A stretch of 64,000 bases of DNA from Alphaproteobacteria bacterium (GTDB taxonomy: Bacteria > Pseudomonadota > Alphaproteobacteria > Reyranellales > Reyranellaceae). The position numbers and the translations under genes are program-made. Location: contig JAHBYP010000003.1 in NCBI GenBank assembly GCA_019635875.1, positions 372,001-436,000 on the forward strand, read 5' to 3'. The notes under the pieces were generated by a model that saw only the letters and a list, made by a program, of their open reading frames with translations, searched no databases and was not told the origin of the DNA. Position 1 is the first letter of the stretch. Each line of letters begins with the position of its first letter. Shown here piece after piece: positions 32,044 to 37,994 of this stretch.

Positions 32044-33651
32044 TCACATCCGGAACACGCCCCACTTGGGTTCCGCGATCGGCGCATTCATCGACGCCGA
32101 CAGGCCAAGCCCCAGCGCCATGCGCGTGTCGACGGGATCGAGGATGCCGTCGTCCCACAGCCTTGCCGAGGCGAAGTACGGGTGCGATTCGTCCTCGAGC
32201 TGCTGGCGGATCGGCGCCTTGAAGGCGGCCTCCTCCTCGGCGCTCCAGGCGCCGCCCCTGGCCTCGATGTTATCGCGCCGCACGGTGGCCAGCACCGAGG
32301 CCGCCTGCTCGCCGCCCATCACCGAGATGCGGCCCGAGGGCCACATCCACAGGAAGCGCGGGCCGTAGGCGCGGCCGCACATGCCGTAATTGCCGGCGCC
32401 ATAGCTACCGCCGACGATCAGAGTGAATTTCGGCACACGCGCCGTGGCCACCGCGGTCACCAGCTTGGCGCCGTCCTTGGCGATGCCGCCGGCCTCATAC
32501 TTCTTGCCGACCATGAAGCCGACGATGTTCTGCAGGAAGAGCAGCGGGATGCCGCGCTGGCCGCACAGCTCGATGAAGTGCGCCGCCTTCAGCGCCGATT
32601 CGTTGAACAGGATGCCGTTGTTGCCAAGGATGCCGACCGGATAGCCCATGATGCGCGCGAAGCCGGTGACGATGGTGGTGCCGTAGAGCGCCTTGAACTC
32701 GTCGAGCTCGCTGCCGTCGACCAGGCGCGCAATCACCTCCCGCACGTCGTAAGGGATGCGGGTGTCGGTCGGGATCACGCCGTAGAGCTCGTCGGCCGGA
32801 TAGAGTGGGTCGCGCGGCTCCTGGAGCAGCGCCGGCGGGCTCTTGCGCCAGTTGAGGTTGGCGACGATGCGCCGGGCGATGCCCAGGGCATGGCTGTCGT
32901 TGAGCGCATAGTGGTCGGCGACGCCGGACTGGCGGGCATGGACGTCGGCGCCGCCCAGCTCCTCGGCGCTGACCACCTCGCCGATCGCGGCCTTCACCAG
33001 CGGCGGGCCGCCGAGGAAGATCGTGCCCTGCTTGCGCACGATCACCGTCTCGTCGCTCATCGCCGGCACGTAGGCGCCGCCGGCGGTGCAGGAGCCCATG
33101 ACCACGGCGATCTGGGGGATGCCGAGCGCGCTCATATTGGCCTGGTTGTAGAAGATCCGGCCGAAATGCGTCTTGTCGGGGAACACCCCGGACTGGTTGG
33201 GCAGGTTCGCCCCGCCGGAATCGACCAGGTAGATGCAGGGCAGACGGTTCTCCAGGGCGATTTCCTGGGCCCTGAGGTGCTTGGTGACGGTCATCGGGTA
33301 GTAGGTGCCGCCCTGCACCGTGGCGTCGTTGCAGACCACGACGCATTCAATGCCCGACACCCGGCCAATGCCGGTGATCACCCCGGCCGAAGGCGCCCGA
33401 TCGTCGTACATGCCGTGGGCGGCCAGCTGGGACAGTTCCAGGAACGGCGCCCCGGGATCCAGCAGGGTGCGGACTCGCTCACGTGGCAGGAGCTTGCCGC
33501 GCTTCACGTGACGGTCGCGGGATTCGGCCCCACCGCCCATCCGCGCGGCATCGACCTTGGCCCGGAGGTCTGCGACCTGGGCCAGCATGGCCTCGCGATT
33601 GGCCTTGTACGACGCTGAACGGACGTCGATTTGCGAGCGCAGGACGGACAT
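32044..33651 (-). CDS. liuB: Methylcrotonyl-CoA carboxylase, carboxyltransferase beta subunit
   Basis: A 535-residue acyl-CoA carboxyltransferase. The segment [20 protein letters not shown], followed by [14 protein letters not shown], is typical of methylcrotonyl- rather than propionyl-CoA carboxylase beta chains. The second carboxyltransferase half contains [21 protein letters not shown]. It transfers CO2 from biotin to 3-methylcrotonyl-CoA in leucine catabolism. It is the first gene of the operon, followed by the crotonase-like, unknown and alpha-subunit genes with overlapping ends. No isovaleryl-CoA dehydrogenase gene is adjacent; one acyl-CoA dehydrogenase lies at 39.6 kb. Confidence 0.92.
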
Positions 33652-33822
33652 CGGAAGGACCCGGCGAATGAAAAACCGGGGCGGAAACTAGCCCGGCGGT
33701 GCGCGGCGACCAAGCAGCCTCTGGGTCGTTCTACTTTCGCGAGTCCGGGGATTCATCACTGGACACGCAGTATTCGTCAAAGCATCGTTTGCGGGGGCTT
33801 TTGCGGCGTTCTAACGACTCAC
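33652..33822 (-). promoter_or_regulatory. Upstream region of the leucine-catabolic operon
   Basis: About 170 bases between the liuB start and the terminator of the preceding gene must contain the operon's promoter, but no clear -35/-10 pair could be chosen by eye. It includes a 14-base sequence (33775-33788, CGTCAAAGCATCGT) that recurs at 35199-35212. Confidence 0.35.
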
Positions 33823-33847
33823 AAAAAAATTCGGTTCAGAATGAACC
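33823..33847 (-). terminator. Terminator after the DUF6065-like gene
   Basis: On the minus strand GGTTCA-TTC-TGAACC is followed by GAATTTTTTT. The 6-bp stem is short but perfect and the T-run is seven bases. It lies 60 bases after the stop at 33907. Confidence 0.65.
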
Positions 33848-33906
33848 TTTCCAAAATCCCCGCGTGTGTGGATATCCTCGAGAGACCTGTGGAGAACCCG
33901 AGTCGT

Positions 33907-34701
33907 TCACTCCTCAGGCTGACCGGTGCCTGATTCTCCGTCGCTTTTTCCGCGTTTTCGGGTGCGCTTGGCATACTCGCCGAGCTTGCGGTTCACCTTG
34001 CTCTGCGGAATCACCACCGTGTCGCGGTAGTCCTGCCAGTCGGCGTCGGTCAGATCGTCGAGGCTGCCGACGGTGTCGAAGGCGCTCAGCAGCTTGTCGG
34101 AGAACAGCCAGCGTGGCAGCGGCTGGGCCTGGAATAGCGGCAATTCGCGCTTCACGAGGATCGGCACGCCGGTGCGGCGCAGCCGGATGTTGACGAAAAG
34201 CGGGCCAAACCAACGGTCTGTCTCGACCACGCCCTCGTAGTTCTCCCAGCCACCAGGCTGCGGCAGGTTGGCCACGGGGCGAATCAGCGTGTTCCAGCCC
34301 GGTGCCGAGCGGCCCACCCAGCCGCTCCAGATGTTGACGATGCCGGGTTCGGGCATCGCGCCCAGGAAGGGCACCGCGTAGCCCTTGCAGTCGGCCGGCG
34401 CCTTCTCATCGAAGTGCTTGGCAAAATTGGGGAAATGCTGGCGCGACAGAGGCTTCCACTCGGGCTGGCCGGCATGGCTCCAGAGCACGTCTGCGCCGTC
34501 CCAGAGCAGGCCGAAATCCATTGGCGGGAAGAAGTACCAGCCGAAGGATGACGCCGTGCGGATCGGTTCGCAGTAACGGAAGGAGCGCGTCGGAATGGTT
34601 CCCCCGGCGGAGGCGTCGGCGCGGATCGGCTTCCGGGCCGTGGGAATGAAGCGATAGAAGGTCATCAGCTTCTCGGGAATCGCCGGCTTGTCGGTCGCCA
34701 T
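33907..34701 (-). CDS. DUF6065-like protein, unknown function
   Basis: A 264-residue cytoplasmic protein without signal or membrane segments. It resembles DUF6065 proteins in its opening (MTFYRFIPTARKPIRADA) and an aromatic early segment (FRYCEPIRTASSFGWYFFPPMD). It also holds NIWSGWVGRSAPGWNTL and PLFVNIRLRRTG, and ends in a charged tail. The family assignment is from memory and moderate. It lies downstream of the repeat-peptide gene on the same strand, separated by a terminator, so it may be translated from read-through transcripts. Role suggestion: partner or modifying factor of the peptide (inference). GTG at 34704 is an alternative start. Confidence 0.6.
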   Translation of the reverse strand: MATDKPAIPEKLMTFYRFIPTARKPIRADASAGGTIPTRSFRYCEPIRTASSFGWYFFPPMDFGLLWDGADVLWSHAGQPEWKPLSRQHFPNFAKHFDEKAPADCKGYAVPFLGAMPEPGIVNIWSGWVGRSAPGWNTLIRPVANLPQPGGWENYEGVVETDRWFGPLFVNIRLRRTGVPILVKRELPLFQAQPLPRWLFSDKLLSAFDTVGSLDDLTDADWQDYRDTVVIPQSKVNRKLGEYAKRTRKRGKSDGESGTGQPEE

Positions 34702-34725
34702 CACCCCACCTCTATGCAGCGCCCC

Positions 34726-34766
34726 AAAAAGAGAAAAGGCGAGTCAGCCCGAAGGCTGCCCTCGCC
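34726..34766 (-). terminator. Intercistronic terminator between peptide and DUF6065-like genes
   Basis: On the minus strand a hairpin (GGCGAG-GG-CAGCC, TTCG loop, GGCTG-A-CTCGCC) is followed by TTTTCTCTTTTT. It lies 93 bases beyond the peptide stop and 25 bases before the next start. A terminator at this place would make the peptide transcript more abundant than that of the downstream gene. Confidence 0.8.
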
Positions 34767-34858
34767 CTAACCCTACCATTCGGTCGTGTGGAGCTTCCAG
34801 CGCCGCACCGCTCCTACCAGTAGCGGTACTTCAGCTGCGCTTCACACTACCAGATGTA

Positions 34859-35068
34859 TCAGATGAAAAGCGGCGACATGCCGCCCATCTCGACCTCGAC
34901 GGTCTCCACGAAGAGCGGCGACATGCCACCCATCTGGACGAAGAGCGGCGACATGCCACCCATCTCGACCTCGACGGCCTCGCCGAACAGGGGCGACATG
35001 CCACCCAGCTCGACTTCCACTTCCTCGATAAACAGCGGCGACATGCCGCCCATCATCACAGCGATCAT
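34859..35068 (-). CDS. Multirepeat peptide: five MGGMSPLF units with VEVE linkers
   Basis: A 69-residue product: MIAVM, then units of 15, 15, 10, 15 and 9 residues of the form MGGMSPLF-x-E-x-VEVE (Leu replaces the first Met in unit 2; unit 3 lacks the acidic linker; unit 5 ends the protein). It has 11 Met, 11 Gly and 10 Glu, and no Lys, Arg, His, Cys, Asp, Asn, Trp or Tyr. The minus strand is favoured by an AGGAG site six bases before the ATG (35075-35079) and by codon differences among the SPLF copies (CCG/CCC, CTC/CTG/CTT, TTC/TTT) that are silent only in this frame. A longer start at 35152 would add a 28-residue, Cys-containing leader. I recognise no family. Confidence 0.75.
   Translation of the reverse strand: MIAVMMGGMSPLFIEEVEVELGGMSPLFGEAVEVEMGGMSPLFVQMGGMSPLFVETVEVEMGGMSPLFI
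34869..35053. repeat. Five direct copies of a 20-bp unit
   Basis: Copies start at 34869, 34914, 34944, 34989 and 35034, with spacings of 45, 30, 45 and 45 bases, all multiples of 15. The unit encodes the MGGMSPLF core of the minus-strand peptide; one linker is shortened by exactly five codons. Confidence 0.9.
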
Positions 35069-35176
35069 CGGACTCTCCTCATCAGTGCTGGTGCCTGAAG
35101 AAGGCTCGTCCACACACCCCCCGGCGCATGGGACCTCTTCGCCCAGACCCATCCTCGTTCAACGTTGTGTTTTCAT

Positions 35177-35215
35177 CGTCAAATCAGGGCGCTAGTTGCG
35201 TCAAAGCATCGTCAA
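35177..35215 (-). promoter_or_regulatory. Candidate SARP operator: three direct TTGACG repeats
   Basis: On the minus strand TTGACG begins at 35215, 35204 and 35182, that is 11 and 22 bp apart, on one face of the helix. The first and last copies extend to TTGACGATG. The sites fall in the gap between the stop of the SARP-type regulator (35220) and the peptide gene. SARP regulators bind such phased direct repeats in front of weak promoters. No consensus -10 is obvious downstream. Confidence 0.55.
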
Positions 35216-35219
35216 TGCG

Positions 35220-37205
35220 TCATTCTTCGGGTATCCCGGCCCTTCGCAGCCCTTCGAGGTAGTGAATCAGGTCTTCCTCACGCTCGAGCGGGTAGTTCTT
35301 GCGATAGGCGGCAATGGTCAACTGGTGCTGCTGCGCCCGCAGCCGCTCGACATAGGGTTTGGCCTCCTCCGGACGGCCCAAATGGCCCAAGGCAACAATC
35401 AGCGGCTGCAGAACGGCGGCGAAATTCGGCCGATCCACCAGGATCGGTTGCGCCGCGGTGACGACGTCCTCGTAGCGCCGGGCAACCGCCAGGGAGATGA
35501 CGTTGACCGTCTCCCAGAAATACACAAAGGGGTCGAACGGGCAGAGGCGGCGATAGCGCTCCAGGCGCTCGAAGGCCTCCTCCGGGCGCCCGCGATAGCT
35601 GCAGAGCAAGGCGGCGAAGGCCCAGCCCCAGCCGAAATTCGGGTTGATCGCCAGGGAGCGGTTGTGCAGCCGCTCGGCCGCCTCATAGTTGCGGTGGACG
35701 AAGACCTCGACATGCCCGGCGAAAGACAACGCCATCGCATCATCGGGGTCGCACTCGACCGCGAGACGGGCGTGACGCTCGGCCCCTTCGATCGCCGCCT
35801 GCTTGTCCTTGGCCCAGCCCTCGCCGATCTCGAAGACGTGCATGAAGGCCATCCAGGCATGCGCGCGGGCATACTCCGGATCGAGCACCAGGGCGCGGCG
35901 CAGGAACTCGCCGGCCATGCGGAACGATTCGCCGTTCGCCTGGTACAGCAGCGGCACGGCGCGCAGCACGTTGTCGTAGGCGTTGCGATTCTCCGGTGGC
36001 CGACGGCGCGCGCGATCGATCTCGGCCTGCAGCAACTTGGGGTCGAGCTGACCGACGATTTCCCGCACGATCTCGTTCTCGAGCTCGAAGACCTCGGCGA
36101 AGGACGCCACGCGCATGTCCGACCAGACCGTACGGCCGTCGTCGCAATCGACCAGGCGCACCGCGATGCGCACGCGCTCGGCGCTGCGCCGCACCGCGCC
36201 CTCGACGGCGTAGCGCACGTTCAGGCGCCGGCCGACATCGCGCGGGTCGGCGTCGATGCCGCGGTACATCCCGGTCGAGCCCGAGGCGATCACCGACAGC
36301 CAGCGGAAGCGCGACAGACCATCGACGATCTCGTCGGCGAGGCCGTCGCCAAGGTAGTCCTGGGTCGGATCGCCGCCGATGTTGCGGAACGGCAGCACGG
36401 CAACCGACAATTGCACGGCGTGCGCGTCGTCCTGCAGCAGATCATCCGCGCCGGACGCCGCCGGTCCACCGCTTTCGCCGGTCAGCCGGTCGCCCTTGAT
36501 GCGCTCATAGAGCGTGACCGTCGCCGGCCCCGGCTTGGCGTCGAGCACGCGCTTGAGCGTTTCGGTGGCGATCTGGAACTGGCGCAGCGCCGAGGACTTG
36601 TCGCCGCGGCGCGCATACGATTCCATCACCGCGCGATGCGCTTCCTCATGCGCGGGATCAATGGTCAGCACCGCCCGGGCGACCGACTCGGCGTCCGACA
36701 CGTCGCCGGCGCCAAGCCGCTCGCGCAGCAGCGAGGCCATGGCGTTGAGCGCCGTATCGCGCCGGAAGGCACGTTCCGAATACAACCAGTCGTCGAATGG
36801 CCCGCCGATCGAACCGATATCGGCCAGCAGGTCGCCGCCATAGAGCGCAATCACCTGGCGGCGATCCTCGGGCGTGCCGACGGCCAGACGCTCGAGCTCG
36901 CGCGCGTCGATCCAGACCTTGTCGAGACGGATATGCAGGGCGTCGCGGTCGACCTGCAGCGCCTCCTCGTCACGGCCACGGAAGGCGGCCCGCAGCTCGG
37001 TCACGCTCTGGCGCAGGCTGCCGCGCGCCTGCTCCTCCTGGCGATCGCTCCACAGCAATCCCGCGAGCTTTTCGCGCGTCGCCGAGCCGCCCGGCGCAAG
37101 CGCCAGGAACGCCACCATGCCGCGCGTCTTGCGCGCACGAGGCGTCACATCGGTACCGTCTGACGCGAGGAGGCGGCAGCCGCCAAGAAGGTTGATCTTC
37201 AGCAT
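35220..37205 (-). CDS. SARP/BTAD transcriptional regulator with TolB-like and TPR domains
   Basis: A 661-residue regulator. Residues about 1-95 form an OmpR-type winged helix (MLKINLLGGCRLLASDG ... RGMVAFLAL ... SLRQSVTELR). About 100-235 form a BTAD helical-repeat domain. About 265-385 resemble the TolB-N/FlgO-like segment of signalling ATPases and cyclases (VAVLPFRNIGGDPTQDYLGD). TPR-like repeats fill 400-640. There is no membrane segment. The family activates secondary-metabolite or stress genes by binding direct repeats. It is encoded immediately upstream of, and on the same strand as, the repeat-peptide gene. ATG at 37205 is chosen; GTG at 37217 is possible. Confidence 0.88.
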   Translation of the reverse strand: MLKINLLGGCRLLASDGTDVTPRARKTRGMVAFLALAPGGSATREKLAGLLWSDRQEEQARGSLRQSVTELRAAFRGRDEEALQVDRDALHIRLDKVWIDARELERLAVGTPEDRRQVIALYGGDLLADIGSIGGPFDDWLYSERAFRRDTALNAMASLLRERLGAGDVSDAESVARAVLTIDPAHEEAHRAVMESYARRGDKSSALRQFQIATETLKRVLDAKPGPATVTLYERIKGDRLTGESGGPAASGADDLLQDDAHAVQLSVAVLPFRNIGGDPTQDYLGDGLADEIVDGLSRFRWLSVIASGSTGMYRGIDADPRDVGRRLNVRYAVEGAVRRSAERVRIAVRLVDCDDGRTVWSDMRVASFAEVFELENEIVREIVGQLDPKLLQAEIDRARRRPPENRNAYDNVLRAVPLLYQANGESFRMAGEFLRRALVLDPEYARAHAWMAFMHVFEIGEGWAKDKQAAIEGAERHARLAVECDPDDAMALSFAGHVEVFVHRNYEAAERLHNRSLAINPNFGWGWAFAALLCSYRGRPEEAFERLERYRRLCPFDPFVYFWETVNVISLAVARRYEDVVTAAQPILVDRPNFAAVLQPLIVALGHLGRPEEAKPYVERLRAQQHQLTIAAYRKNYPLEREEDLIHYLEGLRRAGIPEE

Positions 37206-37562
37206 CCCCGAACACACTGAGGGACAGACGCCAGCCCACCCCTTCTATCCAGCCTAGTTAATATATTATCACGCCTTGCGAAGAATTAACATCAATATAA
37301 CGAACTAACGAGAAATTATCACATGCAGTGACATTTTATCTGTAACGGACTGAAAAATATCAACGAATCATCGTCAATGTCCACTGGGATTCTGCCTCGA
37401 TTCTCACCGGAATCAGCCTTCACACGATGACATTGGGGAGCCGAATTGCACAAACGACTGAGCGAAATATGTATTGTTCACAGCACGCAAGCGCCACAAC
37501 GCACCCGCGCAGACGCGCCGTCCAGCGATGGCACGCCCCGCGTCCGAGCCCGCCCGCTCGCC
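37206..37562. other. AT-rich intergenic region upstream of the SARP-type gene
   Basis: About 350 bases without a supported gene. From about 37255 to 37480 the sequence is strikingly AT-rich (for example TTAATATATTATC) in a GC-rich genome. It contains one CATTGACGATG motif on the minus strand (37369-37379), similar to the TTGACGATG sites before the peptide gene. It probably holds the regulator's promoter; no single -35/-10 pair is convincing. Confidence 0.5.
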
Positions 37563-37994
37563 TCAGGCGGCAGTAATGTATTCGCGCAGCGCGTCGGCCT
37601 CGCGACGCTGCTCCTCGAGCCGCAGCCGCACGACGTCGCCGATCGAGATCATGCCGCACAACCGGCCCTGACGAAGCACCGGCAGGTGGCGGAACCGCCG
37701 CTCGGTCATGATCTCCATGACGAGCTCGATCGAGGCGTCGGGGTCGCATGTGACGACCGTTCCGGTCATTACCTCGGAAACCTTGCGGCTGAGCGCCATC
37801 GCGCCATCGCGCGCCATGGCGTGCAGCACGTCGCGCTCTGACAGGATGCCGACGATCGCTTCACCGGCGTCGAGCACAAGCACGGCGCCGATGCGGCGCG
37901 CCGCCAGCGTGGCGACGGCGGCCGCAAGGCTGTCGTCGGGCGCGACCGAGATCACGCGGTCCCCCTTGTGTGCGAGGATGTCGGACACGAACAT
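37563..37994 (-). CDS. Tandem CBS-domain protein
   Basis: A 143-residue protein consisting of two CBS domains (about 1-65 and 70-130): VSDILAHKGDRVISVAPDDSLAAAV, then VSEVMTGTVVTCDPDASIELVMEIM. Such stand-alone CBS pairs bind adenine nucleotides and regulate partner enzymes; the partner is unknown. The start at 37994 is supported by GGGAGGAA upstream. It ends in a short helix rich in Arg/Glu. Confidence 0.9.
   Translation of the reverse strand: MFVSDILAHKGDRVISVAPDDSLAAAVATLAARRIGAVLVLDAGEAIVGILSERDVLHAMARDGAMALSRKVSEVMTGTVVTCDPDASIELVMEIMTERRFRHLPVLRQGRLCGMISIGDVVRLRLEEQRREADALREYITAA

Follow-up and report, generated by a model that had tools for sequence, protein, structure and literature searches.

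Comparison with described systems

Several described systems share features with a small cassette found on the minus strand of a 64,000-nucleotide stretch of DNA (the window) from a Reyranellaceae-type alphaproteobacterium, in which the gene order is BTAD/TPR regulator, repeat peptide and DUF6065-like protein; all coordinates are positions in the window. Like the precursors of multi-core ribosomally synthesized and post-translationally modified peptides (RiPPs), the cassette has a small gene, with a conserved unit in repeats, directly ahead of a larger partner gene and, in one lineage, an attenuator-like hairpin; unlike them, it lacks a leader and a conserved protease or exporter, and no known maturase family was detected in it. 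Canonical DUF6065 proteins belong to the same Pfam family (PF19541) and share invariant residues with the peptide-associated proteins, but they form a separate clade, have no motif peptide beside their genes, and are in some cases fused to SapC, Cupin_8/JmjC or PqqD. The dUTPases resemble the DUF6065-like protein in its predicted fold, whereas that protein has no significant sequence similarity to them and no motif V, and possesses C-terminal helices and a motif-peptide partner. Finally, the Stl repressor of Staphylococcus aureus islands is a DNA-binding protein carried by another element, whereas the window peptide consists of motif repeats and is encoded beside its partner; the likeness is that a phage protein with the dUTPase fold has a dedicated protein partner that recognises it.

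A pairing of the dUTPase fold with such a peptide was found in no described system; within the incomplete coverage of PMC, there was no paper on DUF6065 (PF19541, IPR045709) or on dUTPases together with RiPP biosynthesis. The conserved core is the peptide and the DUF6065-like protein, to which the regulator has been added in the Reyranellaceae, and the pair is carried by scattered bacteria on chromosomes, plasmids and phage-like contigs. As a mechanism, a RiPP-like precursor (the peptide) and its maturase (the DUF6065-like protein) are tentatively favoured, with a confidence that falls a little short of even. For the DUF6065 family, the pairing offers a predicted fold together with a partner and a substrate that can be tested.

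Occurrence of the peptide and its partner gene

Many of the genomes are drafts, and the counts refer to the loci examined. Searches were conducted with alignments made for this work because the Pfam model was too weak for the clade in a genome scan; the PF19541 profile detected nothing at E<=0.001 in the window's own genome. Within the Reyranellaceae, the DUF6065-like gene is present in nine of 75 genomes, at 10 loci, every one of which has a repeat peptide upstream. A second alphaproteobacterial family (f43) has the gene in nine of 25 genomes and a motif peptide at all nine loci. In a sample of the class, the profile finds matches in 28 of 385 genomes; five of these genomes match strongly, and three of the five belong to f43. 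Nereida was added by a scan of genome contigs, and nine of the 292 genomes of its order match, with six clade loci and a peptide at five.

Among plasmids, five of 72,556 records match, and the two that are clade-like are both from Rhizobium. At the one Rhizobium plasmid locus examined, a peptide with three motif copies is followed by the DUF6065-like gene and then by a major facilitator superfamily (MFS) gene that is split. IMG/VR supplied 11 loci, three of which begin at a contig edge; a motif peptide is present at each of the eight whose upstream region is included, in one case cut by the contig end (L121). Phage records contained no match for the window DUF6065-like protein or for a canonical DUF6065. 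Overall, a motif peptide lies directly upstream in 33 of the 34 loci with upstream sequence (10 + 9 + 5 + 1 + 8).

A controlled count searched at most 900 bases of upstream sequence with a single regular expression for the motif, and left out L121. At least two motifs were detected at 21 of 33 clade loci and on none of the 33 opposite strands, versus none of 46 canonical DUF6065 loci and two of their 46 opposite strands. With at least one motif, the figures are 29 of 33 (clade), six of 33 (opposite strand), 12 of 46 (canonical) and 13 of 46 (canonical opposite). The expression misses L118 and L127, where the unit is too long, and L080, which has another version, although peptides are recognised by eye at all three; it also misses L082. 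The first-pass annotation had proposed checking whether DUF6065-like genes co-occur with repeat peptides: they do among close relatives of the window gene, whereas a general link between DUF6065 and repeat peptides was rejected on the canonical count (0/46 with at least two motifs).

When one f43 peptide was used as a query across the class, five of 385 genomes matched. Three of these belong to f43 and likewise carry the DUF6065-like gene, and the other two matches are borderline (E 0.004 and 0.008); this query is blind to other motif versions. Simple scripts were used to call the neighbouring genes, which were compared by BLAST and in part scanned with hidden Markov models (HMMs). In a clustering of 33 stretches, in which some linked groups are opposite-strand frames, no families besides the regulator were common across lineages except the peptide and the DUF6065-like protein.

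The cassette in the window

The features of the cassette, all on the minus strand, are as follows.

37383-37294, minus strand: AT-rich stretch with promoter-like hexamers 5' of the regulator (weak; consensus match only)
37205-35220, minus strand: BTAD/TPR (SARP-type) regulator, 661 residues, from domain matches; a local partner outside the conserved core
35081-35075, minus strand: Shine-Dalgarno stretch TGAGGAG ahead of the peptide start, conserved in relatives
35068-34859, minus strand: repeat peptide, 69 residues with five GGMSPLF units, from the open reading frame (ORF), the Shine-Dalgarno stretch and similarity to relatives
34773-34731, minus strand: strong hairpin (-24.8 kcal/mol) with a T run after it, in the gap separating the peptide and DUF6065-like genes; likely attenuator
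34701-33907, minus strand: DUF6065-like protein, 264 residues, from the PF19541 match; predicted dUTPase-like fold
33847-33833, minus strand: terminator-like hairpin and T run 3' of the DUF6065-like gene, from a simple scan

The peptide start is best placed at the ATG at 35068, since a conserved Shine-Dalgarno stretch precedes it and similarity to relatives begins there; the in-frame ATG at 35152 is unnecessary. TGAGGAG is also present in L012, L014, L016, L018 and L034, and L017 has CGAGGAG. The ratio of nonsynonymous to synonymous substitution rates (dN/dS) for the peptide is 0.10 and 0.13 against two close relatives and 0.35 against a third, from 11 to 22 substitutions each, so that the peptide behaves as a conserved gene. 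These low values, together with the repetition of the same three-gene order in eight further genomes, indicate a real gene and not a chance ORF, and the cassette is thus confirmed.

The repeat peptide and its motif

No match for the peptide was found in Pfam, NCBIfam or PHROGs. Across the clade, the general motif is V-x-[LIMV]-[GA]-x(2-5)-P, with V-x-[LIMV] mostly present ahead of the G, and the spacers are hypervariable. Copies per peptide range from one, on viral contigs, to eleven (L018). In the window peptide, three of the four gaps between units are acidic VEVE-type spacers and the fourth is VQM. The window genus and G004 have GGMSPLF and GGLSPLF, while G006, G009, G011 and G013 have GMMAPAF and GMLAPAF, and L035 has GGMQPTF within a 29-residue unit. 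Further versions are GNMSPAF (f43), ANKSPAF (Nereida and Rhizobium), GTRTPVF (L079), GGGLAPAAL (L087), GGGFNPPRVV (L080) and GGGIAPIVL (L081), with GGGWRLP and GGALRLP on viral contigs and GGMAPAL in L121.

The f43 unit is nearly invariant, D-x3-[VL]-R-[LI]-G-N-M-S-P-A-F-[KR]-[VI], in 33 copies from nine peptides. Its G, N, M, P and F are preserved in 33 of 33 copies, the D at -7 in 32 and the R at -2 in 31, and most spacer columns have 2-3 bits of entropy. As one copy suffices, it is the unit itself, rather than a repeat fold, that seems to be under selection.

A structural repeat protein, such as a beta-solenoid or fibre with the DUF6065-like protein as its assembly partner, would account for the alternating VEVE and KVKL stretches that lead into a turn-like GxxxP. 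Given that one- and two-copy versions exist and that the spacer sequence is strongly variable, such a protein is quite improbable, and a beta-solenoid was rejected on these grounds. Still less probable, to the point of being very hard to credit, is the metal-handling module that the first-pass annotation had raised: the window version of the unit does contain a Met, but Met is lost from the ANKSPAF, GTRTPVF, GGGIAP and GGGWRLP versions, and the peptides have no conserved Cys or His.

On one viral contig (L122, 964-1652), two motif-type ORFs occur in succession before the DUF6065-like gene, the second of them degenerate, which is perhaps the decay of a duplicated peptide gene.

The DUF6065-like protein and its predicted fold

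The window protein passes the PF19541 cut-off narrowly (30.1 bits against 26.6), and its best stretch covers only profile positions 85-165 of 236. All 25 clade members tested match PF19541 at E<=0.01, and it is their sole match, with no PqqD. A tree built from 33 clade and 37 canonical proteins sets the peptide-associated ones apart on one side of a 100/100-supported branch, and the window protein is 18-23% identical to canonical DUF6065 proteins. C44, A50, G54 and N145 are invariant in 72 aligned proteins, and E160, T161, D162, W164, N171, P188 and W222 are nearly so.

An AlphaFold model built from a 70-row alignment has a predicted local distance difference test score (pLDDT) of 87.1 and a predicted template modelling score (pTM) of 0.80, with residues 31-50 and the C-terminal tail less certain; an earlier run with 11 sequences (pLDDT 48.0) was left unused. 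In a Foldseek search of the PDB with this model, all 50 of the matches listed are dUTPases (best E 2.9e-5), and VIA-align on 3ecy gives Z 12.1, with 119 residues at 3.0 Å. Matches among predicted viral structures also include dUTPases, ranked below higher-scoring uncharacterised phage proteins, and the phage counterpart family is PHROG 7084 (function unassigned). A sequence-profile search of the PDB up to E 1 gave no dUTPase; its only matches were to LolA (best E 0.017), which were judged to be chance. Compared by hhalign with a profile of 22 alphaproteobacterial dUTPases, the protein gives no significant match (probability 0.14%, E 0.41), so that any common descent with dUTPases rests on the predicted fold.

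It is conceivable that the DUF6065-like protein acts on nucleotides in the manner of a dUTPase or dCTP deaminase, with the peptide serving as a regulator or as a substitute for the missing C-terminal glycine-rich arm. Apart from the Foldseek matches, counterparts of dUTPase motifs I, III and IV can be read by eye in A50-x3-G54, G157-V-V-E160-T-D162 and P188-x4-Q193, and the hhalign register, from an alignment that is itself not significant, fits the last two. Set against this, a Tyr occupies the position of the motif I Asp, nothing like the C-terminal motif V (RGAGGFGSTG in the A5 consensus) is found in the window protein, and an ordinary dUTPase is encoded elsewhere in the window genome (99.7 bits). 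A nucleotide-directed function is thus considered improbable.

Canonical DUF6065 proteins are fused to SapC at one locus, to Cupin_8/JmjC at three and to PqqD at one (L041, L062, L063, L065 and L110). Such fusions would suit work on peptides, and on the strength of them the whole DUF6065 family may handle peptides. At another locus (L129; G844, C6 394000-412000), a DUF6065-PqqD gene lies near a second PqqD, an NTP_transf_5 nucleotidyltransferase and an ATP-binding cassette (ABC) transporter, a neighbourhood that looks like an uncharacterised peptide pathway. A TonB receptor is found near the canonical DUF6065 gene or fusion at L132.

The hairpin between the two genes

The hairpin at 34773-34731 did not appear in the first-pass annotation, nor among the hits of the simple scan that picked out the terminator-like site. 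A strong hairpin with a T-rich tail separates the peptide gene from its partner at all 10 Reyranellaceae loci. The shuffle control accommodates even stem-loop lengths only, which places the odd-length hairpins of the window, L035 and L119 outside it; in the other eight Reyranellaceae gaps, the hairpin before a T-rich tail was equalled by 0-2 of 40 shuffles. The minimum free energy of the whole gap compared with shuffles gives z -3.69 for the window, -7.93 for L035 and -0.42 for L119. In other lineages, the genes are mostly 9-69 nt apart, and most of these tight pairs lack the hairpin. None was detected in the gaps of L118, L123, L124 and L126 either, and that of L122 is weak.

The Reyranellaceae hairpin is likely to be an attenuator, which would leave the peptide in excess over its partner. 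An excess of peptide is usual for precursor peptides, a point for which a literature search gave no support.

Opposite charges of the peptide and its partner

In the window genus and G004, the peptides are acidic (net -10 to -17) and the partner is slightly basic (+4, +5), while in genus g4 of the same family the peptides are basic (+11 to +26) and the partner is acidic (-4 to -7). The regulator keeps its sign (-11 to -13 versus -7 to -9). Over 30 pairs, a set without the edge-cut viral loci, L074 and L013 (similar in sequence to L012), peptide and partner charge are inversely related (Spearman -0.84), and the relationship persists with only the first 220 residues of the partner, without the basic tail (Spearman -0.62). 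Independent contrasts on the partner tree for the same two versions give r -0.695 (permutation p 5e-5) and -0.575 (p 3.5e-4). Charges that are opposite across the clade are the best evidence for binding, and suggest that the peptide and its partner bind directly.

The same charge complementarity is compatible with the main rival, in which binding is all that occurs: the peptide, as a multivalent ligand, would cross-link, titrate or switch a dUTPase-fold protein, perhaps trimeric, without any chemistry. A copy number of one to eleven would fit such a ligand, and complexes deposited in the PDB indicate that trimeric phage dUTPases bind the protein partner Stl. On the other hand, single-copy peptides would be unable to cross-link, and a stoichiometric scaffold would need no attenuator to provide peptide in excess. 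Binding without chemistry is regarded as rather unlikely, while ranking above the other rivals. If it is what takes place, the pair would be a new case of natural short-motif recognition, with a charge code whose sign is switched between related genera.

Proposed mechanism

In the precursor and maturase mechanism, each V-x-[LIMV]-G-x(2-5)-P unit would be bound directly by the DUF6065-like protein, at a site that may lie within or close to the counterpart of the dUTPase nucleotide cleft. Each unit would be functionally complete, and copy number would then set only yield or valency; a repeat fold would not be needed, given the single-copy versions on viral contigs. The bound unit would most likely be chemically modified, so that the peptide would serve as a multi-core RiPP-like precursor without a leader, and a small product might then be released. 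Confidence decreases from direct binding to modification of the unit and is lowest for release of a small product. Modification is favoured by the tandem arrangement of the units, by the probable attenuator and by what accompanies canonical DUF6065 proteins, both as fusions and as neighbours.

Several observations weigh against this mechanism. No conserved protease, RiPP recognition element (RRE) or known maturase was detected beside the module, among neighbours that were HMM-scanned in part, and an exporter is not conserved across lineages, with the MFS transporter present only at the Nereida and Rhizobium loci. We know of no case in which the dUTPase fold modifies peptides, and no His is invariant anywhere in the family alignment. 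A conserved motif with variable spacers is the reverse of many RiPPs. One clade locus, L082 (G635), has no recognisable peptide upstream, and the idea for the charge test arose only once the acidic and basic spacers had been noticed.

The broader proposal is of a new peptide-modifying system, in which a dUTPase-fold protein modifies a short motif on a leaderless peptide and the whole DUF6065 family consists of peptide-handling dUTPase-fold proteins; it is held with more doubt than the mechanism itself. If the motif is modified, the dUTPase fold would be a new source of peptide-modifying enzymes, and if the product is a RiPP, it would represent a new RiPP class. A new peptide natural product, as the first-pass annotation had suggested, is possible. 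The smallest modules, with one motif and two genes, are convenient for tests in Escherichia coli.

The regulator and the genomic context

The regulator contains a BTAD domain (PF03704, 63.3 bits against a cut-off of 22.1) and TPRs; the OmpR-type winged helix, Trans_reg_C, scores 16.4 bits, under the cut-off of 26.2. The regulator has matches in 11 of 33 stretches, comprising nine Reyranellaceae loci with the window order, L035 and L118; the remaining 22, short ones among them, gave no match. At nine of the 10 Reyranellaceae loci the regulator lies on the same strand ahead of the peptide, and the tenth (L035) has two BTAD regulators that are divergent, as are those of L118. The regulator had been regarded as part of the module in the first-pass annotation, and was rejected as part of the core on the basis of the 22 stretches without a match.

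The order and placement of the three minus-strand genes that had been described are borne out by gene calls and domain matches. The AT-rich upstream stretch is present, with three promoter-like sites in 33650-37600 versus 0.7 expected; the terminator-like hairpin is present, but the number of such sites (three versus 2.5 expected) is not above that in shuffles. The neighbours appear unrelated, as had been claimed: CBS-domain and DctP proteins are encoded upstream, and the downstream ORFs are carboxylase-like and enoyl-CoA hydratase-like, as named by reading their translations.

L035 is a second module in G011 (C2 110000-120000), and in the tree it groups with the viral-contig clade and not with its own family. 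This position, together with divergent BTAD regulators like those of L118, makes it likely that the module was acquired by horizontal transfer. On the IMG/VR contigs (L118-L128), the module lies beside phage head genes; L118 encodes a terminase large subunit, a portal and major head proteins, relatives of which are present on most of these contigs. Ahead of the module, L119, L123 and L124 have a transporter that reads as YeiH-like. An MFS gene lies directly 3' of the DUF6065-like gene in Nereida, and at the Rhizobium locus it has been annotated as two separate genes (L033 5665-6897, L075 7738-8879).

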